Below, piece after piece: positions 21,043-57,998 of a DNA stretch of 64,000 nucleotides. The translations under genes and the position numbers were made by a program. Below the pieces are notes generated by a model that ran no database searches, had not been told where the DNA came from, and saw nothing but the letters and a program-made list of their open reading frames with translations. Position 1 is the stretch's first letter; every line of letters begins with the position of its first letter. The stretch comes from Orbilia blumenaviensis. Taxonomy: Eukaryota; Ascomycota; Orbiliomycetes; Orbiliales; Orbiliaceae. The stretch is from positions 248,001 through 312,000 of the forward strand of contig JAVHNS010000008.1 of the NCBI GenBank assembly GCA_036872755.1, given 5' to 3'.

Positions 21043-23382
21043 TCAAACACCACCCAACCCTCTGATTCTCTTCCATTCATCCTCCGTTGGATTAACCTTT
21101 GCCCGTCCAAAGTTCTGATCTAAGTCCAAAATCATCTTTAGGGCATTTCTGCTCCTTACCCACGGCATATCTCCAGCTGTCTGCCCCAGACCAGCTGTAT
21201 GCAACCTTCCGGCCTTTTTGTTTAGCCCAGATAGATCATCCGAATCATATTCTGGGAACGGCGCAACATTCTGTAGCACCTCGTACGCCGCGAGCGTGAA
21301 ACCAAACTGTGGCGATGATCGAAGAATACGGGCTGGGCCACCCTTGAAGAAGGCCTTGAATCCTTCCTCCTTGTAGACGGTCCTCGCGCAATGGGTAAGA
21401 CCCCGATAGGTTGTTTCGCCCTTTCGGGCTTCGACTTGAAGACGGGTTTTAATAACGTCGCAGGGAGTAGTCAAGTATCTATCCGGCAGAGAGTTCAATT
21501 AGCACACCGATTTTTGGCACTCTTAATCCAAAACCGACGGCGAACAGGATAGGAAAAAGATGATAAGAAGAAAACTTACGCTGCTGGCATACCGGCAATG
21601 GCACCGCTGATCAAAAGCGCTCCAACGCCCAACTTTTTTGTCTCGCTCTCACCAAACCAATCTTTCTTCATATGCGAATACGTCGGGAAATAGATCGCAC
21701 TGAACGGAATATCACGCAACAAACACGCACTGGCTCCCTTGTACAAGCCCAGCAACCCCAAATTCTTAACAATCCAAAGCGCGGAACGACGTGGCATCCC
21801 CGGGGTGTTCTTAGCGATTTCTCCCTGAACTTGAAGACGAATTTTAACGATTTCTAACGGACTAGACAGAGGTAAGGGATACCAAGGTTAGCTAACTTGT
21901 ATTTTACGGTGTAGGGGCACTCAAAAACCACACGTAGCTTGGTAGTAAAACTCACTTTGTGAAAATAACTTGACAACCACCAGCAGTCCCACCAGCAACG
22001 ATTTCCCACGGCAAACTAACACCTTTCCCATCCAACCCTGTTCCCTTTGCATAATCTCGTATTATATCGTTTACTGTCAACTTAATCGCCTTTTCTGGCG
22101 CCACACCCACAAGCTGGGGTCCCAATCCCCTGTACAACCCCGTAAACCCCTCGTTTTTGATGACCTTCTTAGCGCAATCTACCGAATTAAGGTATAACCT
22201 TTCTCCGACGACGGTGACTCTCTGGTTTTGCATTCGAGTTTTTACGAGATCAATTGGGTAAACCATGGTAGCCCCGAAGGCACCCGCGATGGCACCGAGA
22301 CCGAAGTTGTACATACTTTTGAGGACGGCTTTGAGAGGCTTAGGACCGGAAGAAACAGCTGTGGCGGTTTTCTCGGATGACAGGCGTTCGCTCGGTTTCC
22401 AGCTCGGATCGACGACCTTGGAAAAGTCCTGGATGGAGAGACGGCCGGTTTGATTGTCCAGCGATGCGAAATGGAAAAGCACGTCGGCTTCCATGGGTGT
22501 GAAGGTACCCCATCTTGATGTTTGCGCGGCCTCGTTGATAAAGTCAGTGCGTGTGATGCTTCCGTCCTTAGATTTCGAGACTGCTTTGCGAATTATAACC
22601 TCAACGAGGTCGATATCCTTCATTAAGTTCTGGAAGGCACGCACGTGGGCGTATGAAATCTTAGCGGTGAGCCCCACATTACATAGAGTGTGAAGGTTTT
22701 CGAGAAGGTGGTCGGAGAGCTTGTGTTTTTGTGTCTTAACGATGATTTCCTCAAACTCGGCCGGGGTGATGTAGCCAGTGCTCTTTTTGTCGAAGTGAAG
22801 GAAGGCTTGTCGGACACGTTCACCTTGTACACCCCTCAACATTTGCGAGAATTGGGCATATGTGAGTTCCCGGCGAGACTTTTGTCCCCCAAGGTAGAGA
22901 GAAGCCCATGATGAGGTCCAATCGAAGGGGAGGGCGTCAGCGGACTTGTTTTCTTTATATAGTTGAATGAAGTCATTGAAATTTACGACGCCGGTGCCAT
23001 CGCGGTCAAAGAGACGGAAAGCAATTTCATATTCAGCGTCTGGCTTGGACAGCAGGTTTTCGAAGAAGGCATAGTCTTGTACGGTAATCTGGCCCTTACG
23101 ACTGCGATCCGCGACGAGGAAAAGAATACCATATTGTTCCCTGGGGATTTTGTGGTACGCAGCGGCAGCCGAATCGGGAGGAGGGGTGATAGCTTCGATA
23201 AAGTCGACTTGCGACATAAGCTTCACGCCCTCCGGCGACGTGGACGAGGCATATTTGTCAAAATGAGAGCGGATTTGGGCGGATGTTTCCGGCGCAGGAG
23301 CCTCGTGGCCGACAAGAGCATCGACGACGGCAGCAGCGGTCTGCTGCGACTTGCTCGCGACCTCTTGGGTGAGGCTAGCCAT
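21043..23382 (-). CDS. AGC1: EF-hand mitochondrial aspartate/glutamate-type carrier
   Basis: Three exons (23382-21956, 21861-21580, 21478-21043) with introns of 94 and 101 bp give 714 residues. The N-terminal half (about 1-330) is a calcium-regulatory EF-hand domain like those of aralar and citrin. One loop is canonical ([12 protein letters not shown], residues 126-137) and the others are degenerate. From about residue 358 there are three mitochondrial-carrier repeats, whose signatures are PIDLVKTR (376-383), [10 protein letters not shown] just after the first intron, and [10 protein letters not shown] just after the second. Both introns therefore fall immediately before a P-x-D/E-x-x-K motif. 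The protein should sit in the inner mitochondrial membrane, exchanging glutamate for aspartate in the malate-aspartate shuttle. The length suits the metazoan-like AGC form. Substrate specificity is inferred from the family and was not tested residue by residue. Confidence 0.94.
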
Positions 23383-25829
23383 TATGGGGATGAGGTATAT
23401 CTATCTATCAGAGTTCGAAGATGGGAGGGAAGGAGGGGTCGGGATATTTTTTTTCTTTCTCCTGTTCTTTCTCCTTGGGACTTGTTACTATAGTTAGCAA
23501 ACGATCTGTTGTGGAAGGAGCGAATACGGGTGGATGGTTGTAGCCCTACGGGCAGGTTTGTCATACAAGAAAAATTTTTATGACGTCGTGGCCGTACCGT
23601 CAGACCACCAATTGACGGGCAACCAAAGCTGTATATAAAAGCTCGAGCCGGGCGACAGTCTGGCAGAAGCAACCGTGGAAGGAGCGAGCGAATGTGGAGA
23701 AGAAACTTGGCCGTGGAGAAGATGGGTCCGGTCTGGGGAAGGAGAGATTGAAAGGGGAAGGGAGGTTGAGGTTGAGGTGTAGTTTAATTCCGAGTTAATG
23801 TTAGCTTCTTCCACCAAGCAAAGCAAAGCTAGTCAAGCTTAGAACCCCCCTCACACAAATATAAAAAAATTAAAAAAATAGAAAAAATAGAAAAAAATAT
23901 GTCTATATGATATGAGATGGGAGTAGTCAATATTATTCTACCAGACAACGAAGAAGAAGACGAAGAAACAACATAGAAAATAAGAAAAATATAAAAATAA
24001 GAAAAATGGCTCGAGGGAAGCTAGAAAATTAGTCGGAGCCGGATGGCGCGAGGCGGGGAGCAAATGCAAAATTTTTGTTTCACGGTACGGCGGTCGAAGT
24101 CGAGGCGGCTGCAAGACTAACTCGCCGACTGAACGATGGACCTAACTAGTGGCATCTACCCCACGCAGCAGCAGAGATGACCTTATTAGCATCCGAATCC
24201 TCAAATACTATTACGAGCTGAATGAATCGGGATTTGGAAAGTAACCGAGCGGGACAGAGGTTGTGGCCGAAATCGCAGGAGCTCACTTTATATATTTCCA
24301 GCTTCGAACGTCAAAACGAAAACGACAAGCCCCAAGTGACCAGGGATGTCGGAAAGAGCTTGTCCCATGCCCCGCCCAGGTGGATATTCCGAGCGCTCTT
24401 AAGCTCCTTCGCATGCAGGCACGAGGGCCCTTAACAAACAAACGATGGGGTTGATTAATAAATTAAGGTACGGTGGGGTTTTCTGATTCGGTTTGCATTT
24501 TTTATTATCTTATCTCGCCTTTTTTGGCTAAATTGGTATTCCATCTCGCCCACAGTGCCTTTTCTCTCCTCGTGTCGTGCCTCTGTATCGAAATCTTGGG
24601 ATCTCTTCAGATCTGCTGAATTGTTCCCACGGTTGTAGGCACTCGATCGTGTATCCCGGTGTTAGCTGCCCGTTAGTATGTACGCGTATACATAATATGT
24701 AGTTGCAGTGGGGTTTCTTCGAACAAAGCACTTTGTTTGATTAGAGTGACCACCCGGGTGAAAGGAAGGTAGTGAAAGGCAGAACGGGACCCGATAACGG
24801 TGAATAGGAAACGAACCCACCGCACGGCGCCATTTCGTGTGAGATGTAGATCGAGCGGAGGTGTTCTCCAGGTCAAGTTTGGGTTAGATCTAGCGCTCGT
24901 TCGGATATCATTCCTAGTCTAGCACAACTGTCGCGATTCGTACGTATATAGGCTCTTAAGATCTTGTCTCTTGTAAGCTTATGCCCTGGCCTGGAACGGG
25001 GACACACGCAAGCTTCGAATTCAAATCTAGACGACTCCAGACGATCGGATGAGACCGTTGTTTGTCGGGATGGCAGCTCCAGAGTTGGACGGAGTATACC
25101 GCCGTGCAGAACCCGTCCCGCCACTCGCATTCGCCTACGGAGTCGCGAGACATCGCTTCATGGGCTGCTTCTATGCATGGATTCCTTCCGTAGCTCAGTA
25201 GCGTCGAATGGAGACTTCAAAGCCTTTATCAAAGAGGCGGGGAAGCCAGCTAATTAAGCCCTGGGTTTAAGGGGTCAGGATGTTAATTAGTCTGGGAGCA
25301 ATGCATCGTGCAGGATTTCCGAGCAGACAGATACAATACAAAATGTACATATGGGGAAGCTTGGGGGTCCGTGCCTGTCAAACGCCGATAGGTATCTATC
25401 ATCCGAAGTCAAATTAAGACTAGTCGATGTTAGTAAGCTTATAAGCTTAAGTTAAGTTTTTCGATCGAGGGGAATCCTGTCAATTCGTAGATGTGGCTGT
25501 GGATATATATGGCTGGGGACACCGCTATGTGGCAGTGTATGTATATGGCTGGTGATATACACTTTGTGGCTAGTGATATAGTTGTGGCTTGTGAATACCG
25601 ACGTGAGGTGTAGCTTAGTAGGTAGTAGTAAGTAGCTCTCCCAAAGCAGCTGCTCCAAAAGTGCAGCAGCGTTCCATGACTACAAACGTCTTCGACTTCC
25701 TTCCCCACGACCACTATAATCTCCCCCCAAAAAGAAGCCGCTCACAATTCCGTCATTCAATAAGCCCAATCTACGGCCTGATATTCCGAACGACCTTATA
25801 CATCCTTTTCCCGATCACCGGAATCTATT
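23383..25829. other. Divergent intergenic region, carrier / CSN1
   Basis: About 2.4 kb between two divergently transcribed genes. I see no coding frame of note. The part next to the carrier start is purine-rich on the minus strand, as is common for fungal leaders, and 23860-24000 is very A-rich. It presumably contains both promoters. Confidence 0.6.
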
Positions 25830-27466
25830 ATGGCCGATACTTTCTCGATGGCTGACGACCAAGGCGGGGCATCCGGCGCGCCCTCATATGACGAGTACGA
25901 GCAGCCTCTCCCACAGCAGACCGCGAACACGACACATATAATCGTACCTGGTACGTGTTTCTTTGGTATAATACTCAAAGATAACTGTCTAACATATTGA
26001 TAGACCTACCAAGATTCGATCTCGAGCAATATGTCGGAAACTACTCTGGTACCTAGCCTGATCCTTTCGTCGATATTACCTATGTATAGATGTTCTAACA
26101 TATACTTTAGGACGTATGAAGGTCACCCGTCTTCTTTTTATCGGAAATCACTGCCCTCCCCTCGCCGTCGAAGCTCTAAAAACCGCTATCGGTATCGTCA
26201 AAGCCGACCGAGATGTCAGACTCTATCGCCAGGCGGTCCAAAGTTTACAAGTCTTCGCACCAACCGATCCGGATGCCAAATTGGATGAGGATTGGATTGA
26301 AAGGACTACTAGAGAGGTTAAGCAAAAGACTGACCGTCTAGAGGCCGAACTTAAGAGCTACAAAAATAACATGATTAAAGAATCCATACGCGTATGTTAG
26401 CCCTTTATATGGCTTTTTTTCTTTTTGTTTTTTTTTGGTGTCATGACTGTTATCTAACAAAGAAGCGGCTGGATAGATCGGACACAAGGATCTAGGAGAT
26501 CATTTCTATACTACAGGTGATCTTGCTTCCGCCTACCGTGCCTTCTCCCGGATGCGTGATTACTGCACATCTAATAAGCAGATGCTGGACATGACACTGT
26601 CGTGTATCCTTATCTGCATCGACCAAACTCAGTACACATCAGTCCAAACAAATGTGGCTAAGATCCGCAATCATATCCGTTCGGACGATGAACTGAAGGT
26701 CCACCAGCCCAAAATCAACATCGCAACTGGTGTAGCTCTCCTTGCTGCCGGGAATTACTTGGATGCGGCGAGATCTTTCATCTCTACCAACCCTGCTATC
26801 GGCAATGACTACAACACAGTCGCTACCATGAACGACATAGCCATCTATGGTGGTCTAACAGCTTTAGCATCCATGGATAGAAACATGCTCAAATCAGAAG
26901 TCTTAGAATCCACAACCTTTCGTACTTTCCTAGAATTGGAACCACATATTCGTCGTGCGCTTACAGCTTTCCATGCTTCGAGATATGGCGAGTGTCTTCA
27001 GATCCTTGAAACCTACCGGAACGACTATCTCCTCGACCCCTTCCTTCAAAAACACATCGATAAGATATACGAAGCCGTCAGAACGAAGAGCATTGTTCAA
27101 TACTTTATCCCTTTCTCCTGCGTCACTTTAGATGCTATGAGTACTGCTTTCAGCGTTCCAAGCGAACAGATGGAAAGGGAGCTCGTACGGCTCATCGAGG
27201 GTGGAAAGCTACATGCCAGAATTGACACTCAAAATCGACTAGTAACGAGCAAGGAAACACAATTGAGGGTCGAAGTACACCGGGGCACCCTGGCAATGGC
27301 AGAAGAGTACGAAAGAGCTGCGAGGTTGAGGATGCTACAGATCAATGTTGTCAGAAGCGGATTGGAAGTTAAACCGCCAAAGGGACAGCTAAGTGGTGGG
27401 GGGGTTATGGGAGGTGCATTGAGCGGTAGGGAGTTGAGGGGTATGATGTTCGGAAATGGAGCTTAG
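25830..27466 (+). CDS. csnA: COP9 signalosome complex subunit 1
   Basis: Four exons (25830-25950, 26004-26048, 26111-26391, 26477-27466) with introns of 53, 62 and 85 bp encode 478 residues. CSN1 is a scaffold of the COP9 signalosome, which removes Nedd8 from cullin-RING ubiquitin ligases. In filamentous fungi the complex controls development and light responses. The family is shown by L-x-F-I-x-x-H-C-P-x-x-x-x-E-A-L-K near residue 55, then N-M-I-K-E-S-I-R followed by I-G-H-K-D-L-G-D-H across the third intron. The N-D-I-A-I-Y-G-G-L block follows at about 268, then L-E-L-E-P and a PCI winged helix at about 354-409 (IVQYF...RIDTQNRLV). The start was chosen as the ATG whose frame splices cleanly. 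An upstream ATG at about 25677 is out of frame. Identification is firm. Confidence 0.95.
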
Positions 27467-31806: not shown

Positions 31807-33381
31807 ATGTCTGTTGCTTACGCTATTGGCGGCATTGTGTTGGTCGGCGTTATCAGTCCGTTCTGTCAAAAACGTAGCTATAGGCCCTCAGTTTCGGTAT
31901 CTAGATCTATTAAACCCAGATCGGCTCCTTCTGCTCGTCCCCTAAGGCCGGAGCCTTCTAAATTACTTCGCTTGGAACACCTTGACTACACTCGGGGTGA
32001 TCATTCGGACAAGTAGGTGCTTACCTCGTCTTTTCCCTTACAGTGTGTTAATTTTAAATTTTCGTCTCATACCTAAAACTTATGCACAAAGCGTGTTAAT
32101 CAATACTCTGGAATACGATATCAATGCTGACAATAAATTTTATTAATTTAAATTAGGATCGATTATTGGGATTTGTATAGAAGAAACTGTATTGAGCCAT
32201 TCAAACCCAGGACAGAGCTTGATCTCGAATTTCAGATAAATGTCCTTCTCATCGACTCAGGCATCGATGGGGATCACGTTGGGATTATGCTACAGATAGA
32301 AGATGGAATCATTAGGCCGTGGCGTGACTATACCACGGCCGAGGACCCTATGCTAATCGATGAGCGTTCGGATCATAGCGGTTCGCTTGTGGACGAGTTT
32401 GGCCACGGAACGTGTGGTGCTGATATCATTGGGATGATGGCGAGTAGCGCAATTATATATTCTGCTCGTGTTTCCAAGAATGGCTCAAAAGTTAGCCCGA
32501 AAGTTGTTGCAAAGGTATGACACACCGGTTTGATGGAATCGACATTAATGCGTCCATGCAAGACGTAAAATTGTTTTTGCTTAGAACGAAAGCTAATATT
32601 CATGATACAGGCCATAAATGACGCCGTCGATGCTACTGAAGAAAATGAAGTGTCTTTCGATTTTATTGTTATGCCACTTGGGTTCCCCGAGAACAGTAAG
32701 GGTCTTGAAGAGCTGGAAGCAGCTATCAAGAGAGCAGGTAAATTGGGTATCACCCTTATTGCCGCAGCCGGGAACGACGGAAACTTCAGAAACCCTCCAC
32801 CTCCAGCGTGCTATCCCGAAGTCATTTGCGCTTTTTCCTGCGATGGCAACGGAACACCTTCTGGTTTCAGTCCCTCTATTCATCTGACCTCCACCGAAAA
32901 GAAAGAATTTCTTGTTCCTGGGGAAGGGATTGAATGTGCTTGGATCGAGCCAGGAAAATGCCATTCACAAGAACGCAGGATCTACAAAGAAAATAAATCT
33001 AAATTTGCGCCAACTCACGAAGCTCACCCGTCCTTATTCCAGGGACTCGGGCACCACATGAATCTAAAACATATGGACCAAGCCCTACCAAGTGACCAGA
33101 ATGAACCTGAGGAAAAGAGCGGGTACGCCTTTGTTTCTGGAACGTCATTTGCCTGTTCTGTTCTCGCCGGTATCTCCATTGTTGTTCTCGAAAGATTATA
33201 TGAGGTAGCAGTGAAAAAGGATTATCTTTCCGCTATAGAAGAGGTTGATAATGCACGAAAGAAATATTTACGAGACATCTTGAGCCGCATGACGAGACCA
33301 GAGCGCGGTGCTTATCTACTTAACCCTACCCAGATCACTAATGAGATCTTGTCGGAGTACCTAACCCAATGCGACTCATAA
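31807..33381 (+). CDS. Subtilisin-like serine protease (S8), HET-Q2-like candidate
   Basis: Three exons (31807-32012, 32157-32514, 32611-33381; introns 144 and 96 bp) encode 444 residues. The S8 catalytic set is complete: Asp102 in LLIDSGIDGDH, His152 in FGHGTCGA, oxyanion Asn243 in AAAGNDG, and Ser367 in VSGTSFAC. The start is the first ATG in frame. The N-terminus has a short hydrophobic stretch (residues 3-18) followed by a basic, Ser/Pro-rich segment (22-56). No room exists for a normal I9 propeptide, so this does not look like a secreted digestive subtilase. About 50 extra residues (305-355) lie between the VPG-E-G-I strand and the serine motif. No NB-ARC or repeat domain follows, so it is not a full NLR. 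Fungal subtilases of this kind occur as cell-death effectors. The gene 2 kb downstream is a possible substrate. Confidence 0.9.
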
Positions 33382-35371
33382 CTGGCCCGGGCCATTCAGC
33401 TATTAAGTTACCAGGTTGATGGGACCGTTCCCTTCACCTATCATATTTTGGGGGGGTCAAACCCTCTTCTCGCCGCTTCAAATCGCACACCAATACTCCT
33501 GCATGCTTAGGCATTTCATATCCTTTATTTTTTTTAATTATGTTATTCCCTGGTCGGAAGATTTAACCCCCCAAGAAAACCAAGAAAACGACCAAAAAAA
33601 AAAGAAAAGAAAAGCGTTAATGATTTAAACGGAGTAAATCACTACTATTCGAGGAGGATGTTTGGAGTTTCAGTTGCCTGCGTCTGATTTATTTCCTAGT
33701 TTGTTAGCAATCTTTATCCGTTCTGTATATTAGCACTCGTATTCACAACTCCCTAATATACGGGGTAGCTGTGCGCATGGCCGCATAGAAGCTGTCCCCG
33801 ATCAACTCTTATCACATGCATGGAATCAAAGTTTTTTATTCAATTTTACAAATAATGTTCTTACTGGGTATCCCTTTGATAGATAAAAAGAACTTCGGTA
33901 ATTATAACCACGATAAACATTATTCGTCGATAGAAGCTGTCGCATGCTAAACGTTGATTGTACGACGCAAAGTTGTTGGCATATAATTGTTGAATGGCTT
34001 TAATAGGGCTCGGTCGTTGTATGCATGCAGGACATGTCAGGCTGCAGAGGTGCAACTTGAAAGCATGTCATGATTGTCCTATAGCTACCGCCATAAATCA
34101 AGGATTAACCTTTCCATCGGTGTAAACCCACCTCCAAACCAAGCGCTGGGCGCCGTTTCGGGTCCACACCGACAGGGAATCACGGGTTTTGTTGCATTTT
34201 GTGTGTTGGCAGTCGCACCGGGTTGGATATTATATTCGCCCTTGCTTGTTTCGACTTCAAGAGACGATAGTTAATTGCCGGATGGTTCCGGACAAAGAAA
34301 GAGAGGGATCGATCGAGGAGCGAAAAAATTAAAAAAAAGGCAGGCCTGAATACTCGAACTAACAAAAAAAAAAATATCCCTGTCTATTTTTAAATTTTAA
34401 ATATGGAAATAGAGCCCGGACCCAATCTGGGACTGCACACCGGTACGGCAACGTTTATATAATCTCATAACGGCCCGGATTCGAGTGCAAAGTGAGCCAA
34501 TTCAAATTTAAATCGTGGAAATCAGAGTTTTACGTATTTGTGGGTTTTAAGGTAGACGAGGGGCAACTCGGAGCATGAAAGCGGGGCCTTTTAAGTATTT
34601 GGAAGTCTTCTGTCCCGGGATCCCGCCAAACGATGGCTAGTCGGCGCCTAAGGCACATCGTAGTACAAGGAAGAACATGAAATCCTGGTTGGTCGGCCGT
34701 TGACATACTATGATCCCACTAGATTTAATAGACCAATACGAAATTCCCACAACCCGTTAACTTGCATGCGAACCCACAGCAAATGTTAATGTTCCCCACT
34801 AAAAGTTTGGACAGATACGGCAAGCCCTTGCTCGTCATACGCTTCTGTTTCGAGAAGTTTATTGGTCAATTCGTTCGAATAAAATGAAATAAAAGAAGAT
34901 GTTTGGTCGGAGAAATTCGAGTTCCCGTTTGTTAACAAACCACGTCATAACTGCGTTCTGCATATTGCGACGATAATGAGGATGGTTTTAACCGTTTGAC
35001 GTGGCCAGGATGCAGATGCAATGCAGGCAATGGCCATCAATCCACCAGCACCACGCTTTGGAATATGCGAATAATTTATTAAAGTCTTCTTTTTTTTATA
35101 CCCGATTCAGTGGTATATATGTCGCGATTTAGCCCCGTCGGTCCTGCCTTTTGGAAATATTTAGAGTTTGTGTAATTAATATCTCCATAGGCTTTCACCT
35201 TCTATAACCTTCTCATTAAGTCTTTTGTATATATTCAAAATTGGTTCTTGATTTCAGCTACAAATCAGAACAGTTCCTATCCGCACCGGCTGCTTAAAAT
35301 AATTATATACGGCTGGCCGTTACCTTCTCTTCCTATTACTATCCACACTACAACTTCAGATCGGCGCCAAG
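33382..35371. other. Intergenic region, subtilase / gasdermin-like gene
   Basis: Two kilobases without a supportable gene between two collinear genes. It is A/T-rich around 34325-34400 and 35085-35100. A TTATATA box-like sequence at about 35301-35308 lies some 65-70 bp before the downstream ATG. Confidence 0.55.
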
Positions 35372-36214
35372 ATGGCCAACAGAACTAAGGAATACTTCCT
35401 AGCACCAAGATTTGACATCCCTCCCCCGGCCGTTCAACTCGGCAGTATCATCCGAGATAAAGAATCGCCGCGCGAAACCCGCGGTGTAGAGACAGTACGG
35501 GTCCCTGATAGTTGCATTGAACTATCCCAGGCAGTGGACTATGAGGACTCATTTGAAACCAAAGCAAGATTTGGCGCGAGTCTATTCGCAGAAGTGCTCA
35601 AATATGTCTTGGGGGTGGGCATAAACATCGGGACACGAATCCAACAAGCCGAATCAATGGAATTAAGATGTGAAAGGCTTGAGACTAGGTGCTTTGACCC
35701 GACCCCGGAATATTTACAGCAAGCTATGCAAAAGGCTCGGGAGAACCCTACTATGAACCGCTATTTGTCGAAACGTGGGATAATTGGGAACAAGCGAAAA
35801 CTATTTATGGTCACCGGGGTCAAAGTAGCAGAGGGTCTGACTATATCAACCAAAACTAAGTCTGACCTCGCACTCGAAGGTGGGATTATGGTCGATGCGA
35901 CACCTACAGGAATGCCGATTGGCGTCGGCCCTATGATCCAACTCGAAACCATTGGGTCTAGAGAAGCTAGAATTACCGTTGTGGGACCAGTAGTACTTGC
36001 ATACAAGGTCATCGAGATTGTGAGGAAAAGGGGATCGGAAATGAAAATGAAAGATTATAACCGTGGAGCACTTCTGAATGGGAAGCTCACCGAAGAGGAT
36101 CAAGAGAACGAGTATGAAGTGGTGCATCAGGATTTTGATGATGGGATCGCCGACTTTGGCACTGGCCATGGCAGCCAAACCCAAACGACGGGTTCAGAGG
36201 GTCGATTGTCATAG
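35372..36214 (+). CDS. Candidate gasdermin-like pore-forming protein (HET-Q1/RCD-1 type)
   Basis: A single exon of 280 residues with a good start context (CAAGATGGCC). No signal peptide and no classical membrane helix are seen. It opens with FLAPRFDIPPPAVQLGSII (9-27), an N-terminal pattern I associate with a large family of fungal hypothetical proteins. Then come a Gly-rich strand pair around 67-90 (FGAS...GVGINIGT), an L-x-T-x-x-F-D-P turn (103-110), a helix (113-134), and alternating strands. These include LFMVTGVKVAEG (144-155) and LAYKVIEI (209-216). The order and spacing resemble the gasdermin N-terminal fold. The core ends near 221 and a charged, acidic tail of about 60 residues follows. 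Podospora HET-Q1 has a similar size and a short cleavable tail. The gene itself is secure, but the fold assignment is inference by eye and could be wrong. Confidence 0.55.
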   Translation: MANRTKEYFLAPRFDIPPPAVQLGSIIRDKESPRETRGVETVRVPDSCIELSQAVDYEDSFETKARFGASLFAEVLKYVLGVGINIGTRIQQAESMELRCERLETRCFDPTPEYLQQAMQKARENPTMNRYLSKRGIIGNKRKLFMVTGVKVAEGLTISTKTKSDLALEGGIMVDATPTGMPIGVGPMIQLETIGSREARITVVGPVVLAYKVIEIVRKRGSEMKMKDYNRGALLNGKLTEEDQENEYEVVHQDFDDGIADFGTGHGSQTQTTGSEGRLS

Positions 36215-38702: not shown

Positions 38703-39998
38703 ATGCACATATCCACTCGCTTCAACGTGCTCTTGTTCGCGCTCATTGCCCTCGTTTCCTTCACCACCGCGCGCACAACCATAACAATCCAATCCTGTTC
38801 AACCCGCTACTGCGGAAACCCAACAAAGGCCATCCGCACCACCAAGACAGTCCACAAGACCACCCGATACAGCGTCTACCGCTGGAAGACCTCCACCAAA
38901 TACCGAACCACTCACACCCTTACGTCGACAAAATATACGACCTTAACAAAATATAATACTAATACTATCAGGACTGTTACGATTTATACTGGTAAATCTA
39001 CACGTATTCAAACTCTTGTGCCGTCAGTTTATGCGACTGAGCCGCAGACATGGACGTTTGATAGAACCGTGATTATTACGCCGACGTACACGGTCCCCGC
39101 GCCCTCGGGGTTTATTGGAGTGGATAATGATCCTGATAATTCTGCGTCGCCGGATTATACCCCCCTTCCTGCGCCACAGGAGCCTGATAGGCTCAAGCGG
39201 GATTCGGCGCGAGATGCTGCTGCTGAAGTGCTTGAGCCCCGCGATCCGGCGAATAGATACGCTGAGGCAGTGACTTGCACGAAAACACTGTTGACAAAAA
39301 CTGGTACGATGGATGTGTGGATGACGACTACGAAGACCTTGGGTGTGACTACTGCGCTGGTTCAGAAGACGGTTACGATCAATAGGACAAACACTAAGAC
39401 TGTGACTGCGAAGGATGCGCGCACGATCCGCACGCTGTCCACGAAGTACAGCAGCGTTTGGGGCACTTCTACACAGACTATTTGGACTATGCAGCCGGTT
39501 ACGATTTCTCCTACTGTTACCTTGACTTCTGAGGCTACGGCTACGGCCTACGCCGCCTGTGCGATTAACAACGTCGCACCAGATTGGCGCCCAGGTCAGC
39601 TCGTCGCCGCGAACTACGGGCCTGCGCCCGGTGAGAAGTATATCGACATCGTCGGCAAAACCGGCACGGAGGAATGTTGCGTTCTATGCCTCAACTACAG
39701 CGGACCAGGAAAATGTCTTGGAACCGTATGGAACTTCCTCGGCGCTGAGATTCCAGAGGAAGATTGCCCTGATGCTTTCAGTGGTGGTGTGTTTATGGGA
39801 TGGGAGTTCTGTCCATTTGATCCGGATGATCATTCGATGTGTAGGCTTATTATTAGTGATGATGAGGAGGGAACTTGTAAGACGCATACGTTTGAGTATG
39901 TCAGACATGTTGTGGGGAAGACGAGGATGAAGTATGTTAGCAATGGGCCGTCGTGCGCGAGGTATAAGTATACCGTTGAGGGCCCGAGCCAGCCTTAG
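38703..39998 (+). CDS. Secreted Thr-rich protein with Cys-rich C-terminal domain
   Basis: A single exon of 431 residues. A signal peptide covers about residues 1-23 (hydrophobic LLFALIALVSF, then TTA). Two Thr/Lys/Tyr-rich blocks follow, at about 24-130 and 190-280. They are separated by a Pro/Asp-rich linker with a Kex2-type Lys-Arg site at 165-166, so the precursor may be cut in the Golgi. The C-terminal part (about 284-425) contains ten cysteines (286, 325, 326, 329, 338, 355, 370, 380, 392, 418), including a T-E-E-C-C-V-L-C cluster, and resembles a PAN/apple-like disulphide domain. That comparison is weak. No GPI signal is seen at the C-terminus. It is probably O-mannosylated and located at the cell wall or secreted. 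Its role is unknown. Confidence 0.85.
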   Translation: MHISTRFNVLLFALIALVSFTTARTTITIQSCSTRYCGNPTKAIRTTKTVHKTTRYSVYRWKTSTKYRTTHTLTSTKYTTLTKYNTNTIRTVTIYTGKSTRIQTLVPSVYATEPQTWTFDRTVIITPTYTVPAPSGFIGVDNDPDNSASPDYTPLPAPQEPDRLKRDSARDAAAEVLEPRDPANRYAEAVTCTKTLLTKTGTMDVWMTTTKTLGVTTALVQKTVTINRTNTKTVTAKDARTIRTLSTKYSSVWGTSTQTIWTMQPVTISPTVTLTSEATATAYAACAINNVAPDWRPGQLVAANYGPAPGEKYIDIVGKTGTEECCVLCLNYSGPGKCLGTVWNFLGAEIPEEDCPDAFSGGVFMGWEFCPFDPDDHSMCRLIISDDEEGTCKTHTFEYVRHVVGKTRMKYVSNGPSCARYKYTVEGPSQP

Positions 39999-42107
39999 GC
40001 TTTATGAAGCTGGTGGCTTGACGAATGATAGTTAATAATGTTTATGTAATGTCGAGGTCGGAGAATGTCACAGTTGTGGTCAACAGCGTCTGGGACCGAG
40101 ACTAGGAGAATGTTATATATACTTTTATAATATCATGCTTACTGGAGAGGATTTGGGAGGGGTCTTCGAAAATGTCTCAAATTGTAGCCCCCCCCGGCAG
40201 CCCCCTATAGTATACACCCTGCGGACCGCGTTCAACAGATTAAGACTTGAATTTATCTGATCCTGGGACTTAAGCGTATATAGGGCGCTGTAGCACCTGT
40301 ACATCTTTTTTTTTCTTCTTTTTTTTTTTTAAGTAGTTCTTCCAATTCAATAACTTTCTAGCTTTCTAGCCGTCTATTAGTTACACCTGCCCTTTACGCC
40401 CAGCTGTCTAAACGAATTCTAGAGAGCTTGCGCTCCCATGCGGTGTCTGGACCTCAGGTAGTTGAGTTGAGGCTATGTATATTTTTTTTGCGCTAGGCCG
40501 CAGTTTGGGGACTGCATAAGTGTGTTAAATTAGCATTGTTATGCTAGCGAGCCCTGGAGTTGTAAACCAGCCTCTACAACGAATCTACAAAAAACACTAA
40601 CTAGTTACACGAATAAGAGTGAGCTAGCGCAGGTGGAATAGAAGTGGTATCGGCACACATAGAAATGTAAAGTTAGTTGGCAGCCCTTTTAAACTTCTTT
40701 TTGCAGCCCTATCTTACCAAGAAGCATACTACGAGACTCACTTGGGCATGAGAATATAGATCAAGGGCCTGTGTATGGGCCACTAATATATGAAAACCTC
40801 AGAGTGTCAATCTGTGCAAGTAATTATATACGGTTAATTGCTATCTACTATGCCAAATGAGCAGGGCTTTTAACAACGCTTTAATACGGTTCTGTGAAGT
40901 AATCTCGATGTAAGCTATACCAAAACCCTCATATATACAAATTTCTGGCACAGTACTATACCAGGGCGACATTGTCTTGAATATTATTCTAATTCAACTA
41001 TACTCAGTGAGGCTGCTTGATAAACTATCGTGGCCAGCTCATCCACTGGCCTTCCGCACATCAACATACCACATTTTCAACAACAACATCATTTTATTTC
41101 CGATTCAAAGTCTGATAACTATAGTGATACTGGATTAACCCAGGAAAATTTCCGGCACTATCGATCCCATATAGGCTCTGCCCTCCGAGATCAGTGTACT
41201 TGAAATAAGCCTGGTGAAATGTACGTATGCCCAAGACATTTTCATAAGACAAAAGCGCAGGCTACATATCGAGTTGGGCAGCCCGCATTTAGTAGTTTTC
41301 TACTGGTTAGTCTAGAAGCTAAGCTAGGCTGGACCGTCCGCGCTGCAGCCAAATTTAATGCATCTACATTGGTAGCTTCCATGAGTCTAGAGGTGGGATC
41401 TGGCATTCACTGCGATTTTGGTAAACCCAAAAGTTCCAGTATTATTCAAGCTGACTTGAAGAAAGTTTCTTTACACTGGCCATGAAGTATATATCCTTCC
41501 TCCTCCTCCTCCTTGTATTTGCTGTAGCCTGAGGCTACCCTGGATCCATAGCTTCTGAGCAGCAGGAACATTCGAATGTCCCACTAATTCCGGTAGCCTT
41601 TTGAAACCTATATAATATATAATCCCAGCTCTTCGGACACCAATGCATGGGAGCCCGAACCTGAATCAAAGTTGCACTTTGGGCGCTCCATTACGCAGGT
41701 CAACCATTTTGACTCACCGGGTGGCGGCAGAAAAATCTTTTGGTTTTCACTTTTTGCATTTTTTAGAAAAGGTTTCTCCCTAGGGAGTGCTAGTCTCGGT
41801 CCCAGACGCTGTTGACCACAACTGTGGGAGTGCATGTGTGAGAGTACTGTCTCCAAAAATATTAAAACGATAATTGATATTACATAGATGGGCAGGGCAC
41901 GTTCGCTCTGAACGGCGCTAACGGCAGTTGCAGTCGAAGCTGGAATGGAGTGGAAATGAGTGAGTCAACTGTGATACACAGTCACGTGACCTGAAGCATT
42001 CTTAAAAGGGAAGCTTCCCCAAACCTCCCCAAATCTCTAAGATAAACCTCTCTTCAACCATCATCACCAGCTTCATCTTTAAAACAAATAAAATATAGAA
42101 CCCTACT
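39999..42107. other. Gene-free region
   Basis: Two kilobases with no supportable gene. The only notable frame (41219-41485, +, 88 residues) has no recognisable feature. There are T-rich and C-rich short tracts near 40186-40208 and 40304-40332. Confidence 0.5.
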
Positions 42108-44096
42108 ATGTCCGATATCCCCCAGCTATCTCTACAGCTCCAGTCCACGTCTCTTGCCTCCAGCAGCAGCAGCAGTGATAGCGCTTCTAGTGCAAACAAA
42201 GACAGAAACAACAACCGGAACTTGTCAACCCTCCCCATCGACATCCTAACCCACCACCTGATCCCTCAATTCGCAAACCCCCCGGTTCACCTCTCCCGCT
42301 CCCCTGCCATCCAGGTCTCTCCGGACTCGTCTGCCCTTCGCCAGTTAGCTTCGACCTCAAAACACTTTCGATCCCTCGTAAAAGGCCAGTATAAGACCTA
42401 CGTTCAGCACCAGTACCCTACCGTCTACGCGCACGCTATTACAACAACCGTCTCCCCAAACCTCAACAGCATAAACTGGTCCTCACTCGCCGCTCACTCC
42501 GAACAGCTATGTCGTCGCTGGGCCCTTCGTCAGTTCTATATCTCAAGGGTTCCCCTTGGGGTGCCGCAATCATCGTCGCCTTCCACCGCGCGCCACCATG
42601 ATTACAGCACTCATCATCATAGCCAACGATTCAATTCCAACAACAACAATAATAATAGGGATGTGAAACATTCATTCTCCCCCTGCATCGCCGTCTCCGA
42701 GTCCCCCGACGGGACCGAGACTTTGGTCATCGGCCAAGGCGCCTCCCTCGCCGTCCGCAGGGGAGAATACTCCCTTTGGCGGGAAATAAAGCGAAAAGGC
42801 ATGACCCTCGGCGGCGCGGACGACATTCTTTCCGTGCACATCTACAACCCGGACACTATACTCGCCGTCCGTAGCTCCAGTGTTGAGATTGTCTCGAACG
42901 TGCTGGGTAAAGACGGGATCAACGACGCAGGCGAGGATGGGCCATTAAGGATTACCCAAGCAGCGGATTTATTCCCCTCTGGGGCCAAGAACCCCACCGG
43001 GGGGATCTCGTCCAGCTGTCTTGCTAGCATTGCATCCTCCTCCTGCTCCTCTTCTACCCGCTCATTTGCGATCACCACATCAGCCTCTACAACAGCGCAC
43101 TCCGTTCAGCTCTTCACCCTCGACAGCGGCCTCACAACCCCCACATTCCCCAAAGCCTCCACCTTAACCTCTCCCTTACCCTCCAAGCCCTACACCTCAA
43201 CCTTCCTCACAAACTCCACAATCGCAACCGGCCACCGCACAGGAATCACACTCCACCACCTCTCAAACGCCTCCCTCACCGCAGTCGAAATCCCACACCC
43301 AATAACATCCTACAACCACGCGCTAAGCGTACACTCCCTCACCCCACTTTCCTTATCCCCATCCTCATCATCTAATAGTAGTATACTAGCATCAGGCTGG
43401 TCAGACGGCGTAACCCGTCTGTTAGACATTCGTAGTAACAAATTCATCGCAGAGTTTGAAAACCCAGTGTCGAATGAGGCTGTACCTATATACAGTCTTT
43501 TGCAAACTGCGCCGTTGGGGAATTTGTTACTTGCGGGGTCGTCGTTGCATCATGCTGTTGAGGTGCATGATTTGAGATATGCGGGGAATATGCATTCTTC
43601 TGTTATCAGTGATTATTATTTTAATAATAGTAGTAGCAGCAATAATTTTAATGGTAATGGCAATGGTAATGCGACGGAGTTGACCGGAGAAGGATGTCTC
43701 CTATTTTTCGACTCCCTAGCAAGAGGAAATATCCTGCCCCCAACCAGGGGAAACAATAATAATAACAACAGCAACCGTCGCCGCGGCGGAAAAGGCAGCA
43801 CGGCGATATACTCCCTCTCCTCCTCCTCCCCAGCATCAGGAAAAGTCTATATAGGAGTCGAAAACGGTGTGTTAAACATGGATTTCAGAAAGCGGAAGGT
43901 TGGAAAATATTGGGGTGCGGGATTATCCAGTGTTGAGAAGGTTAGAAAGAAGGAGGCCGAGAGGAATACCGGGGGTGGGGTGCCTATGTATTGGTTTGAT
44001 AGTGTTAGAGGGGCTGGTGATGAAGAAGGTGGGGTTAATGGACGGTGGTGGTGTGGTGGAGGGAAGGTTGCTGTTAAGGTAAGGGAGAGGAGGTAA
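42108..44096 (+). CDS. F-box protein with possible degenerate beta-propeller
   Basis: An intronless gene of 662 residues. An F-box-like segment lies at about 38-95 (L-S-T-L-P-I-D-I-L-T-x-H-L-I-P ... L-R-Q-L-A-S-T-S-K-H-F-R-S-L-V), the region that would bind Skp1 in an SCF ubiquitin ligase. The rest has Ser- and Asn-rich low-complexity insertions, for example near 170-185 and 500-520. Between them are strands recalling WD-type blades, such as L-A-S-G-W-S-D-G-V-T-R-L-L-D-I-R at about 425-440 and L-L-A-G-S-S-L-H-H-A-V-E-V-H-D-L. This suggests a substrate-binding propeller, but I could not count the blades. The target is unknown. It converges on the cystinosin gene, 276 bp away. Confidence 0.85.
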   Translation: MSDIPQLSLQLQSTSLASSSSSSDSASSANKDRNNNRNLSTLPIDILTHHLIPQFANPPVHLSRSPAIQVSPDSSALRQLASTSKHFRSLVKGQYKTYVQHQYPTVYAHAITTTVSPNLNSINWSSLAAHSEQLCRRWALRQFYISRVPLGVPQSSSPSTARHHDYSTHHHSQRFNSNNNNNNRDVKHSFSPCIAVSESPDGTETLVIGQGASLAVRRGEYSLWREIKRKGMTLGGADDILSVHIYNPDTILAVRSSSVEIVSNVLGKDGINDAGEDGPLRITQAADLFPSGAKNPTGGISSSCLASIASSSCSSSTRSFAITTSASTTAHSVQLFTLDSGLTTPTFPKASTLTSPLPSKPYTSTFLTNSTIATGHRTGITLHHLSNASLTAVEIPHPITSYNHALSVHSLTPLSLSPSSSSNSSILASGWSDGVTRLLDIRSNKFIAEFENPVSNEAVPIYSLLQTAPLGNLLLAGSSLHHAVEVHDLRYAGNMHSSVISDYYFNNSSSSNNFNGNGNGNATELTGEGCLLFFDSLARGNILPPTRGNNNNNNSNRRRGGKGSTAIYSLSSSSPASGKVYIGVENGVLNMDFRKRKVGKYWGAGLSSVEKVRKKEAERNTGGGVPMYWFDSVRGAGDEEGGVNGRWWCGGGKVAVKVRERR

Positions 44097-44372: not shown

Positions 44373-45504
44373 CTACTCGGAAACCCCGCCATCATCATCC
44401 ACATACCTCCCCCTCTCCCTCACCAACGGTGTTCTCTCCGTTGACCCCCTTCCGCCCTCCTCCTCATCCCCTTCTTCTTCTTCTTCTTCCTCTTTATCCT
44501 CCTCATCCAAATCCCTAACCTGCTCCCTCCCCCTGTATATAATATAATGCTGCACAATAAAAACCACATTAAGCGCCATACTAATAACCCCCAGCCCAGT
44601 CTTTACAATATTGCCCTTAACCCCATCCCACCCCCCCTCCAACGCCGCATCAATTCCCAATTGCACAAGCGACAAAAGACCACCGAAGAAGTCCGCCAAA
44701 ATCTGCCAGATGCTGAAGCCCTCAGTCGATTTGTTGATATAGTTGATATATATCTGCGGTAGGTATTTTATCAACGTTACCAGGAGTTTTGATAAACTGA
44801 GAACGGTAGTGACGTCGAGGTAGTTTAATTTCGAAAAATCCCAGAAATTGGTGTTTTCGTCCTGGTTTATGACCATTACACCGCCCGCCTGTGATGATAT
44901 CCTAACATGCGATATCGCCGTCTTATTCCCCGCCGCATCCATACCCGCGGTAGGAGAGTTAAAATCTTGGTCTGATTCATTCCCCACCGCGATACTCGTA
45001 ACCAAAAGACAAGTACTGATGATCCCCACGATAACCCCCCACACAACCGGTCTGGTCCTCTCCCTCTTCCTCCCCGTTTCATAACCCCAGATACTGGGGA
45101 AAAACTGCGAATAAGTCAAACAAGCTAATACGAAAGCATGTACAGCAAACGCAAGGTCATTGAGTCTGACGGTTGGATTGGGGGCATGAGGGTAGCGGAT
45201 GGCGTATTCGGAACGGATGGTGGGGGAGTAGAGTAGGAGGGCGGTGTAGAGGGTGTAGCAGAGGAAGCCGAGGATGTTGAGCGGGAAGTAGGAGGTTGCT
45301 ACACCGAGGGTTGAGCGGCGGGCACGGTTCTGGAGGAATTGCGGGTAGAAGGAGAGGGTCCAGAGTGCGAAACTATAATTTTTTTTTGTTAATATCTCAA
45401 TGTCATCTCGAGAGGTCGGTATGAAGGGAGGGGGGGGGGGCGTACTAGGTCCAGCCGACGAGCCAGGAGATGCCCTCTGCGATGTCGCGGCCGGTGATAG
45501 CCAT
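44373..45504 (-). CDS. Cystinosin homologue (PQ-loop lysosomal/vacuolar cystine transporter)
   Basis: Two exons (45504-45446, 45372-44373) with a 73-bp intron encode 352 residues. Two PQ-loop motifs are present, SFYPQFLQN (P30, Q31) and KYLPQIYINYINKSTEG (P225, Q226), each on the first helix of a three-helix bundle as in the cystinosin/ERS1 family. Such proteins export cystine from the vacuole together with protons. The protein starts directly at the first helix, without the glycosylated lumenal N-terminus of the human protein. Instead a loop of about 50 residues (roughly 150-200) with two N-glycosylation sequons (N-E-S, N-K-T) lies between later helices. The C-terminal tail (about 300-352) is a Glu/Asp stretch followed by E-R-T-P-L-V, close to an acidic dileucine-type vacuolar sorting signal. 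Identification is firm. The sorting role of the tail is inferred. Confidence 0.93.
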
Positions 45505-45620
45505 GGTTTAAATTTATATTATATTCTGTTCTGGTGCTTTTACTTATGATATTTTGGTTTTGGTTTTTTTTGTGGTTGTATGTCTACTCCATCGCAAGAT
45601 CTAGATCTATCCCTCTCCCC

Positions 45621-47928: not shown

Positions 47929-49244
47929 TTATATGACAATAGGGGTAACTTTGAATTCAAAGGGAGTGAGAGCCAACGGTACAATGTCGCTGTAACCCAC
48001 GATTACGCGCTCGTCATAACCCGGCATCCACCCAATCATGAGATCGTAGTTCGGCTGGGGCCAACTAAACTGTAGAAAGCCATCTGCGTCTTTTGTGACT
48101 CTGTAGGGTTGTCTCTCAGGATTTAGCTGAGCGGTTGTAGCCCAGAGAATCTGCGCGAAGGGCCTATGACCGCTATTCTGGTAAGGATCACCACAGGCCA
48201 TTTTATCACCCCACCAAAGCTGCTGGGTTGCTTCGTCTAGTCGAAGATAAACCGCTTGGGCGAGGGTTCCGACCGCTTTAGCTTCGAACCAAGTCTGAAG
48301 ATACTCCAGGTCGCCGCCTAACCAAGTTGACACTGGTACGCCGTTACGAAAAGCCTGCGCGACAAAGCTGGTTATTTCAGGTGGGCTAACCGTCTTTGTT
48401 ACTGTTGTAACGGTAGTCGTAGCGTCGACGGTAGCATCTATGACTGTAACGAACGTTGTTTCAACTGCTTTGACGATGCTCGTAAGACTTATCTCGGTGG
48501 TGGGGAGGGTTATAGTAGTAGACGGTGTTGCAGATGCTGTGACGGTTCTAGCGGTCACACCGATACACGAACATGCGCTTGAGAAGCGGACAATACCGGA
48601 GCATGGCGAGGCGTACGCGGGGAAACTTGTGGATGATGACAGGGTAACTGTTGCTGCCCTCTTTATTGGGATGCTGACTTGATTGGCGGTTATTTCCGTT
48701 GTAGCAGTAACGGGTTTTACATCGGTAAATGTATCATGAACGATTTCGACGAGGGTGGTCGGTATTGTGACTGTATTTGTCTGGGAAGTTGTGCTGTATT
48801 CGGTTATGGTTCTGTAGGTTTCATACTCTTGGTGTTAAGATGCATGTTTGAGAATATCTAGAAATTACGGTGTGTATGACAGGTTTTCGATTACTTACAC
48901 AACAGGAGCCGTGACAGTGACATCGATGAGCCCTCGGCAGTCTAACGTCGCCTGGGGGAGGCGTGTAGGGAACTGTGAGGCTCGTAAAGCTATATATTCA
49001 TTATCTAACCGTTAGTAATTACCTTTCATGGATGCCAACGTATTAAGATATTGATTTATATAATCTTAATGGTATATTGACGATGGAGGGGGTTATTCGT
49101 GAACTCAAGACCTTGGTAATACATACCTCTCAGACAGTTATCTGCATGACATTGCCCGCCAGCTCTTTTGACAACCGCGGCTGCGGAAGCCATAGGTGCC
49201 GCACATGCCGCTCCAAGTGCGAGGATAAGAAATTTAGGAACCAT
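47929..49244 (-). CDS. Secreted Thr-rich protein, paralogue A
   Basis: Three exons (49244-49127, 48989-48899, 48811-47929; introns 137 and 87 bp) encode 363 residues. The signal peptide is MVPKFLILALGAACAAPMAS plus a few residues. Next is the motif C-H-A-D-N-C-L-R-A-L-R-A (around 32-43) typical of secreted Pezizomycotina proteins. A Lys-Arg site within I-P-I-K-R-A follows, then Y-A-S-P-C-S-G-I-V-R-F-S-S-A-C-S-C-I-G-V-T, a Thr/Val-rich linker, and a C-terminal domain of about 150 residues without a known fold. The Lys-Arg suggests Kex2 cleavage of an N-terminal propeptide. The start ATG was chosen because it opens the signal peptide. An upstream in-frame codon would bury it. It is closely related to the gene at 50775-52009, with the same intron positions and phases. 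Function is unknown, probably cell-surface or secreted. Confidence 0.88.
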
Positions 49245-50774: not shown

Positions 50775-52009
50775 CTACTGGGGAAGTAACTTGAGTTGAA
50801 TAATTCTATTATTATCTGTCTCCTTGTTCAGCATGTACTGAGGCGTAGTAACCCAGATTCTGCTTGGCCGGAAAACGAACACGAGCGGCACGGCTGTAGC
50901 TGGGTTTCCCATAATGCAATTTAGGAAGCCACTCGGATCAGTGGAGCATACATAAGGTCGTATAGTGCTAGAAAAGTCACTCGGCTTGTAGAAAACAAGC
51001 GCGGTAATAAGGCCGCTGGAATTGACATCAGCATGGCCTGTTGCAGCCTTATCGCCGGACATGAGATAACCAGTTGCAGCATCGATCCTAAGTTCTATTG
51101 CCCCGCCTTTATCCGTGGTGAGCCCAGCCCTTAGAGCGTCTGCTGTTTCAGAATATGTCCCCATGTAGGTGTTCTGGGTTACACCACTTATGTAGAGGGC
51201 AGCAACACCCTCGGTGATTTCGGCAGGAGGAGGAGGATCGACAGTTGTCACAATTGTGTTTGTAACTGTGGTAGCGGTAGTTGTGACGACTACAGTGGCA
51301 TCTGTGATTGTCACAGAAGTGGTATCGACAACGTTCGTAACGCTTGTTAGACTGGTTTCAGTGACTGGAAGCGTAATGGTAGTCGATGGAGTCGATGCAG
51401 TGTGGATTCTGGGAGTGACACCAATGCAAGAGCAGGCACTAGAGAAACGATAGAAGCCAGAGCATGGGGTCGCGTAGGATGGGAAACTAATGGAACTTGA
51501 TGTAGCGATCCTCTTGACTAGTTGTCGTGTTGTGGTAACCAATTGATCCGTTGTAGCTGTGGCTTCGATTACATCGGTCTGGGTATCATAAAAAGACTGA
51601 ACTATTGTGTCGGGGATTTGCAATGTACTAGTTTCCGTGATAGTGGTATACTCCGTTTTCGTCCTGGAGACATGTGCATATGTGTTAGATCTCACGTAGA
51701 AATGCGCCAGTTGGGATTAATGGTGTAAATTTTGCTCGCGACATACACTGTGGGAGGGGTATAAGTGACATCGATAATGCGGGTACAGTCTGCGGACGCT
51801 TGCGAAAGCCGTGTAGGGGTTTGTGAAGCCCTCAATGCTAGAACAAATCTTTGTTAACAAAATTTCTATCAAGGATACCGTATGGAGTCGAAGGGGCTTT
51901 GAGTATTACCTCTCAAGCAATTATCGGCATTACAAGCGGCCCTACAATGCACTGTTGCAGAGACTGAAGAAACTGCCCCAAGCGCGAGGACCAGAAATTT
52001 GGAAAGCAT
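50775..52009 (-). CDS. Secreted Thr-rich protein, paralogue B
   Basis: Three exons (52009-51910, 51837-51747, 51663-50775; introns 72 and 83 bp) encode 359 residues. The signal peptide begins MLSKFLVLALGAVSSVSA, followed by C-N-A-D-N-C-L-R-A-L-R-A. A Q-L-V-K-R site comes next, then Y-A-T-P-C-S-G-F-Y-R-F-S-S-A-C-S-C-I-G-V-T, a Thr-rich linker with T-P-S-T-T-I-T-L-P, and a divergent C-terminal domain. The second exon is 91 nt in both paralogues and the intron phases match, so a tandem duplication is clear. The C-terminal halves have diverged much more than the N-terminal halves. Function is unknown. Confidence 0.88.
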
Positions 52010-56790: not shown

Positions 56791-57998
56791 CTAGCTACGT
56801 TCCGCTCTACAGACCCTCCCCCGCCGGGCCATCTCCAGCAGCGCACCCGCCGCCACGAACTCCTTGCTATCCTCGCCCAGACATTTCCTCTGGATTTCTA
56901 CAACCCTCTCCGCCCACCTGACCGCATCTTCGACCCCTTCCTCACTCATATCAACGATATCTCCACCCCTATCGCCATTTTCGCCCTTATCCCTAATTTG
57001 AAGCGCCAGTTTGACACCCGCCGCATATACCACTCCTAAAGTATCCGTCTCTTCCATTCCTTCCTTTTCAAGCAGTTTGATACATTTCACCACAATCGCT
57101 AGACTTCTCTCATACTCTTTAACTGGCCAATTGCGCTCATTCTTAACCATCTTGATCTCCCTCTTCCCCAGCTTGACAAATAGATCTTCAATCCGCTTTC
57201 TCCTGTAGTCTTCATCATCGTCAGGGCTATCGCATGCAGAACACCTACATCGAAATCCCCAATGCTTTAGGTATTGCCGTCTCACAACCGTCGGGTGGCA
57301 GATATCTATATATGACGTCAATAGCTCCTCGCCAATATTGATATCCCGTAGGGCGTGTATGGTCAGCCGGTTGATAACTGGGTTATACCGGTGAAAGACA
57401 TTCGGAGAGCACGAGTGATTAAGTCGTGCGGAGTGTGGGAATATTCCCAGAGATTTGCTCTGGCCGTCGAGAGATTTGCAGGTGAAACGGTTAGTTTCGT
57501 AAATTGACCAGGCGTGTTCGTGAGCTTCGACCAAGTCGTTGAACGTTGATGAGATGTCCTCTGTTCATCAAAACACGAGTTTACGTTAGTACTTTGAACT
57601 CCATAACTCCACAATGGTTTCCTAAAATTGGGGGAAGTACCGTCACACTCCCGTCTCAATATATCAATCCACTCCACATCTTTTCCAGCCTTTGTCGAAG
57701 CCGCAAGTCCCCAGAACAATTCTTGCTCCTCCTTTCCCAGCTTCTTTACTGCCGCATAAAGCTCTACATGTCCCGCATCATCTGGGAGCAGAATAATGCT
57801 TTCTTCGCAGAAGAGGCGTGTTCCTAAGGGTATCAAAGCTGTAGCGAAGGCCCCGATACCGCTTTCGGGTGTTTGACGCTCCTCGTATAGGTCGCGGCGA
57901 GAGTAAGAGCCGGAGTTTGGATTAGCAATTGCGGCGGGCTTTGGGCTTACATTGTCGCTGAGGAAGATTTGGGTTGCTGCGTCGGCGAGAACTGTCAT
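56791..57998 (-). CDS. SET-domain protein (SMYD/SET5-like)
   Basis: Two exons (57998-57641, 57560-56791) with an 80-bp intron (GTACTT...ACAG) encode 375 residues. The split SET domain shows G-I-G-A-F-A-T (47-53) at the SET-N end, N-H-S-C at 167-170 (cofactor binding), G-E-E-L-L-T-S-Y-I-D with Tyr203, and a zinc-binding post-SET set C-R-C-S-A-C (224, 226, 229). The intron lies between the SET-N and SET-C parts. There is no MYND finger between them, so it belongs to the short fungal SET group often annotated 'SET domain-containing protein 5'. It probably methylates lysine, but the substrate cannot be predicted. The C-terminal 130 residues are helical and charged. Confidence 0.9.

Follow-up and report, generated by a model that had tools for sequence, protein, structure and literature searches.

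A subtilase gene beside a predicted gasdermin gene in Orbilia blumenaviensis: a probable two-gene cell-death module

Introduction

Do a subtilisin-like protease gene and a neighbouring gene for a small protein with a short acidic tail work together to kill cells? This question is raised by a 64,000-nucleotide stretch of the genome of Orbilia blumenaviensis TWF730 (C8:248001-312000, hereafter the window; the genome comprises 42,458,278 bases in 23 contigs). This ascomycete belongs to the Orbiliomycetes, the class of nematode-trapping fungi. An initial annotation of the window had placed a subtilase about 2 kb upstream of, and on the same strand as, a 280-residue protein that it took to be gasdermin-like, and had described the surrounding DNA as accessory.

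Fungal gasdermins are often found in the company of proteases. Passages of two reviews put more than 80% of fungal gasdermin genes in clusters with proteases, about 63% being linked to S8 proteases and 19% lying near CHAT proteases (PMC12881547, PMC10197012). For example, HET-Q1 is described as activated by proteolysis, with about 5 kDa lost from its C-terminus and HET-Q2 likely cutting at F238, and RCD-1 as an exception that is activated by allelic pairing (passages of PMC12881547). We utilize profile searches, structure prediction and a genome-wide survey of linkage to examine the window pair, which very probably constitutes a regulated cell-death module composed of a fungal gasdermin and an activating intracellular S8 protease.

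Results

Identification of a fungal gasdermin

A profile built from the 280-residue protein and its relatives, which were gathered with paralogues from its own genome and two profile rounds (best 8000 candidates each), matches Neurospora RCD-1 (E 4.6e-18), Podospora HET-Q1 (2.5e-13) and bacterial gasdermins. Gasdermins also occupy all of the first 21 Foldseek rows obtained with the predicted fold, and among solved structures it is RCD-1 that this fold resembles most closely. Profile matches and modelled fold together identify the protein as a fungal gasdermin, as the initial annotation had proposed; the beta-rich core and short acidic tail that it described are both borne out. The strands of the AlphaFold model fall between residues 49 and 228, and residues 1-228 are basic with an isoelectric point (pI) of 9.09. 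Residues 229-280 have a pI of 4.2 and a mass of 5.7 kDa, and residues 236-280 a pI of 4.05 and a mass of 4.9 kDa. A short acidic tail of 48 residues stands in place of the long inhibitory domain of animal gasdermins. Of the 28 aligned proteins whose sequence extends into the tail (the tail-less P0029 being excluded), 21 carry a [KR]GA motif at the core/tail border, although these are not independent cases because many of the proteins are close Fusarium relatives. We propose this junction as the candidate cleavage region.

The 280-residue protein alone finds only itself at E <= 1 in a collection of 5.8 billion proteins (1095 candidates), and a Pfam scan returned only LAIKA at 0.024, which is under the cut-off. 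One protein from the gasdermin profile search, P0003, carries a precomputed Pfam entry, PF26164, which has no bearing on the assignment.

An S8 protease with a complete catalytic set

The subtilase model is predicted from sequence and was picked by splice-site consensus among 24 open-frame GT..AG combinations. Its product scores 1.9e-13 and 50.8 bits with PF00082 (cut-off 21.8) and contains the full S8 catalytic set of Asp102, His152 and Ser367 with the oxyanion residue Asn243. Among proteins of solved structure, intracellular subtilisins come nearest to it in sequence (4.6e-9). No second domain was recognised beside Peptidase_S8 in the Pfam scan of the 444 residues, and no prodomain was found. 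With a profile of five other subtilases from this genome (three gasdermin-linked and two of the ankyrin (ANK) type, the window protein itself left out), exon 3 scores 51.5 bits, as against 32.2 bits for the best competing open reading frame (ORF) in a set that represents 17 of the other 28 S8 loci. The window subtilase is the most divergent of these six gasdermin-linked or ANK-type proteases.

The N-terminus of the protease begins with a 19-mer, counted from residue 2, of mean hydropathy 1.96, and residues 1-70 have a pI of 10.4. It is a possible N-out/C-in membrane anchor that would leave the catalytic domain in the cytosol, a placement based on the positive-inside rule, and it could alternatively hold a secretion signal.

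Gasdermins and subtilases are systematically linked

The coding gap between subtilase and gasdermin is 1,990 bp with both genes on the + strand, so that the initial annotation was accurate in its placement of the pair, as it was to the residue in its four catalytic positions. To place this linkage in context we surveyed the genome, in which matches were read exon by exon and counts for large families are lower bounds; 36 S8 matches merged into 34 S8 loci. Five gasdermin homologues were found, namely the window gene, C6:770829, C11:1119018, C1:2864450 (two exons) and C1:401329. Measured from each gasdermin homologue to the S8 domain match of its nearest S8 locus, the distance is 2,177 bp in the window, 949 bp at C6:770829, 580 bp at C11:1119018 and 722 bp at C1:2864450. 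Linkage at 0.6-2.2 kb in four of five homologues, where about 0.03 would be expected, means that the association is systematic and not due to chance; routinely unlinked homologues, for which the initial annotation had advised a check, are not what this genome contains. When the window pair is omitted, three of four homologues lie within 2.5 kb (P about 6e-7 under random placement, at a limit chosen post hoc with the distances already known).

At the three other gasdermin-linked subtilases, a DUF7580 domain immediately precedes the S8 domain in the same orientation, and from order, strand and spacing we take DUF7580 and S8 to be one gene at each of these loci. A profile search gave no DUF7580 match anywhere in the window, which rules out a missed N-terminal DUF7580 in the window subtilase. 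Relative to these counterparts the window protease is a minimal version with no recognised second domain. In passages of PMC10197012, about one Q2L protein in three has a recognised architecture with further domains; such fusions are thus frequent without being defining. Genome-wide, DUF7580 gives 16 matches at 13 places (three being second matches) on C1, C3, C4, C5, C6, C10, C11, C12, C14 and C17, and three of these places directly precede an S8 domain beside a gasdermin. Our literature search found no paper under the name DUF7580.

The C11 gasdermin (L013) corresponds to P0002, annotated as hypothetical protein TWF730_002058 of Orbilia blumenaviensis, and has an O. oligospora relative of 60% identity. 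A search with the single sequence found no close orthologue for the window gasdermin, a difference that speaks in favour of its rapid turnover.

A CHAT partner was ruled out for the gasdermin at C1:401329, as the sole CHAT match on its contig lies 2.5 Mb away (nine occur in the genome); published CHAT partners were counted within 10 kb of a gasdermin (passage of PMC10197012). This gasdermin (C1:401329-402258, L027:2929-3858:-) does lie 3 kb from a gene for an astacin-domain HEFGHAIGCVHEH metalloprotease with H-type lectin repeats. The metalloprotease is a conceivable partner, the pairing having been spotted after the fact, and our literature search found no paper joining gasdermin and H-type lectin.

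Table 1. Features of the subtilase-gasdermin pair, its neighbourhood and related loci (window positions unless a contig is given).
Feature	Position	Strand	Remarks
Subtilase (Peptidase_S8) gene	31807..33381	+	3 exons, 444 aa, predicted; ATG at 31807
Subtilase exon 1	31807..32012	+	Hydrophobic N-terminus, then basic segment; no Pfam domain
Subtilase intron 1	32013..32156	+	GTAGGT..ATTAG
Subtilase exon 2	32157..32514	+	Asp102 (IDSG), His152 (GHGT)
Subtilase intron 2	32515..32610	+	GTATGA..TACAG, directly 3' of VAK
Subtilase exon 3	32611..33381	+	Asn243 (AAAGND), Ser367 (SGTSFA)
Fungal gasdermin gene (predicted)	35372..36214	+	Single exon, 280 aa
Pore-forming core (predicted), residues 1-228	35372..36055	+	pI 9.1
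Core/tail junction RGALL, residues 231-235	36062..36076	+	Candidate cleavage region
Acidic tail, residues 233-280 (48 aa)	36068..36211	+	pLDDT <50 from residue 234 onwards; about 5 kDa, putative inhibitory segment
O-GlcNAc-transferase-type gene	8250-13220		Conserved, upstream of pair
EF-hand mitochondrial carrier gene	21952-23400		Conserved, upstream of pair
RPN7 (proteasome subunit) gene	26477-27466		Conserved, about 4 kb upstream of pair
Thr/Ser-rich protein gene	38703-39998		431 aa; hydrophobic N-terminus; no Pfam match at 0.001
Transposon-like element	40069-41826		1,758 bp; perfect 37-nt terminal inverted repeats
ORF	42099-44096		No Pfam match
PQ-loop gene	44373-45518		Conserved, downstream of pair
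SET-domain gene	56791-57564		Conserved, downstream of pair
Astacin-domain HEFGHAIGCVHEH metalloprotease	C1:396511-398253 (L026:8012-9754)	+	Only astacin match found in genome
Protein X, C1 copy	L014:521-1366 (C1:612 kb)	-	Divergent from ankyrin-S8
Protein X, C3 copy	L015:46-900 (C3:2174 kb)	-	Divergent from ankyrin-S8

Genomic surroundings

The RPN7 and PQ-loop genes bound some 17 kb of DNA in which the pair is accompanied by the Thr/Ser-rich gene, the ORF at 42099-44096 and the 1,758-bp element (Table 1). Because conserved genes flank the pair on both sides, the accessory character ascribed to the surroundings applies at most to this local stretch, and does not extend beyond it. The element contains no ORF of 170 residues or more, and its first 30 nt have 105 matches in the genome at up to three mismatches, as compared with none for the reversed control. 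One of these matches, C11:1118913, sits between the C11 subtilase and the C11 gasdermin. The 37-nt inverted repeat was ruled out as the mark of a mobile element carrying the pair, which lies outside the element, and the 25-45 kb region of the window yielded no direct repeat of at least 30 nt. Further Thr/Ser-rich ORFs occur at 47929-48834 and 50775-51716, on the strand opposite to the 431-residue gene, and the Thr/Ser-rich proteins could be secreted or on the cell surface.

A possible second effector family

Two more S8 proteases of the same type, C1:616540 and C3:2178639, are preceded by ankyrin ORFs, and order, strand and spacing suggest that ankyrin ORF and S8 form one gene at both loci. 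No gasdermin match was found in the 9.5 kb around each of these proteases. Divergent from the ankyrin ORFs, and 0.5 and 1.2 kb from them, are genes whose product, here called protein X, is about 285 residues long and acidic at its C-terminus; its C1 and C3 copies are 60-62% identical. Of two weaker relatives, one, at C5:1421023 (4.5e-7), lies 2.3 kb from an NLR-like ORF that encodes NPHP3_N and ankyrin repeats, and the other, at C6:694267, is a partial match (0.0044) situated within 1 kb of a CHAT ORF.

Protein X has no Pfam family over the cut-off and no convincing PDB match, and galectin-3 rows (0.045-0.23) were judged to be chance. The gasdermin profile has no match in L014 or L015, and an origin of protein X as a diverged gasdermin is not supported (hhalign probability 0.6% with a two-sequence profile). 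As a lead only, protein X may be a second protease-controlled effector family. That one class of intracellular sensor proteases governs two unrelated effector families, gasdermins and X, is a tentative idea to which we would give rather less than even chances. If it is true, the window pair would represent the simplest form in a broader collection of modules that join a protease to an effector, and its activator might be tethered to a membrane.

Discussion

Proposed mechanism

Homology, fold, linkage and tail anatomy indicate that the window pair most likely works like HET-Q1/HET-Q2; tail cleavage, pore formation, a trigger and an immune role are inferred, the activation step from the published pair and from anatomy. 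In the resting state the 48-residue acidic tail would hold the basic pore-forming core off membranes. On a trigger, the subtilase would cleave near the core/tail border, around the [KR]GA junction at residues 231-240, taking off a tail of about 5 kDa, and the freed core would then bind membrane lipids, oligomerise, open pores in the plasma membrane and kill the compartment. Control of the protease is sought in its N-terminal hydrophobic and basic segment, perhaps a membrane anchor, or in a separate protein, because the window protease lacks the DUF7580 of its three counterparts.

Several observations weigh against this interpretation. A PDB search with the 280-residue protein alone reaches only RCD-1-1 at E 0.15, and the family assignment therefore depends on the relatives. 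The predicted model is middling (predicted local distance difference test score (pLDDT) 66.9, predicted template-modelling score (pTM) 0.66), and the template-modelling (TM) scores of the first 21 Foldseek rows are modest, at 0.22-0.45 by query length with root-mean-square deviations of 7-17. The coding gap of the window pair exceeds the gaps of the other linked pairs, and the gasdermin at C1:401329 has its nearest S8 match 28,088 bp away and no CHAT match nearby. Evidence for the membrane anchor is weak, and the hydropathy score alone settles nothing on this point because a 19-mer within the catalytic domain, from residue 363, is as hydrophobic (1.98) as the N-terminal one. Additionally, cleavage is not needed by every fungal gasdermin, RCD-1 being the exception described (passage of PMC12881547).

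Alternative explanations

The best surviving alternative, which we nevertheless regard as unlikely, is a true het-Q-type incompatibility locus at which strains differ and fusion unites protease and gasdermin. In the model given in a passage of PMC10197012, het-Q arose when a sensor turned constitutively active, so that it now kills strains expressing the effector. The same two protein types occur at het-Q1/het-Q2, and the window gasdermin as a single sequence finds only itself (E <= 1, 1095 candidates) when its C11 paralogue has a 60%-identical O. oligospora relative. However, both window genes are present in one assembly, where a protease that was permanently switched on would kill its own bearer. 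The protease must therefore be restrained, and for this one genome a regulated immune or death module is consequently favoured, as better supported, over an incompatibility pair.

Improbable, and more so than an incompatibility locus, is activation of the gasdermin without cleavage through the pairing of allelic variants, with the subtilase as a bystander. RCD-1, which is described as requiring two alleles and no protease (passage of PMC12881547), has the solved structure most like the predicted one. Against this, four of the five gasdermins found in the genome are subtilase-linked, the catalytic residues of the window protease are intact and the gasdermin ends in an acidic tail comparable in size to that of HET-Q1.

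Least probable of all is a secreted digestive protease that adjoins the gasdermin by chance: its N-terminus is hydrophobic and nematode-trapping fungi do secrete subtilisins, but the Pfam scan found no prodomain, the closest solved relatives by sequence are intracellular, the profile of gasdermin-linked and ANK-type subtilases ranks it above ORFs drawn from 17 further S8 loci (51.5 versus 32.2 bits), and the linkage recurs in the genome.

Comparison with known systems

The regulated gasdermin-protease module proposed here is a fresh example of a known arrangement, as clusters of this kind have already been published for fungi. Our literature search found no gasdermin paper for Orbilia or nematode-trapping fungi, and none on Orbilia blumenaviensis or TWF730. 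Protease-linked gasdermins are now placed in the Orbiliomycetes, and one genome holds a bare-protease pair together with three DUF7580 pairs. Consequently, the role of the sensor part can be approached by comparing pairs within one organism. The survey also exposes protein X as a possible second effector family beside the same protease type.

Bacterial gasdermin operons, described as anti-phage systems in a passage of PMC12881547, differ in that the window gasdermin is distant from theirs in sequence. RCD-1-1/RCD-1-2 of Neurospora crassa need no protease and act through the pairing of allelic forms (passage of PMC12881547), whereas here a protease gene is adjacent. Podospora anserina HET-Q1/HET-Q2 share with the window pair a serine protease of the subtilisin-like type and a gasdermin whose C-terminal tail measures about 5 kDa. 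The likeness to HET-Q1 is one of profile match (2.5e-13) at low sequence identity, and that to HET-Q2 one of protein type; the window genes differ in standing together in one assembly. The Q2L-gasdermin clusters of Clave et al. 2022 differ from the window pair, whose protease has no recognised sensor domain beside S8; its three linked counterparts in the same genome bear DUF7580. The published clusters resemble the window pair in their two-gene layout, in which S8 is the commonest partner (passages of PMC12881547 and PMC10197012), and the window pair has its S8 protease gene 1,990 bp from the gasdermin, as in these protease-clustered modules.

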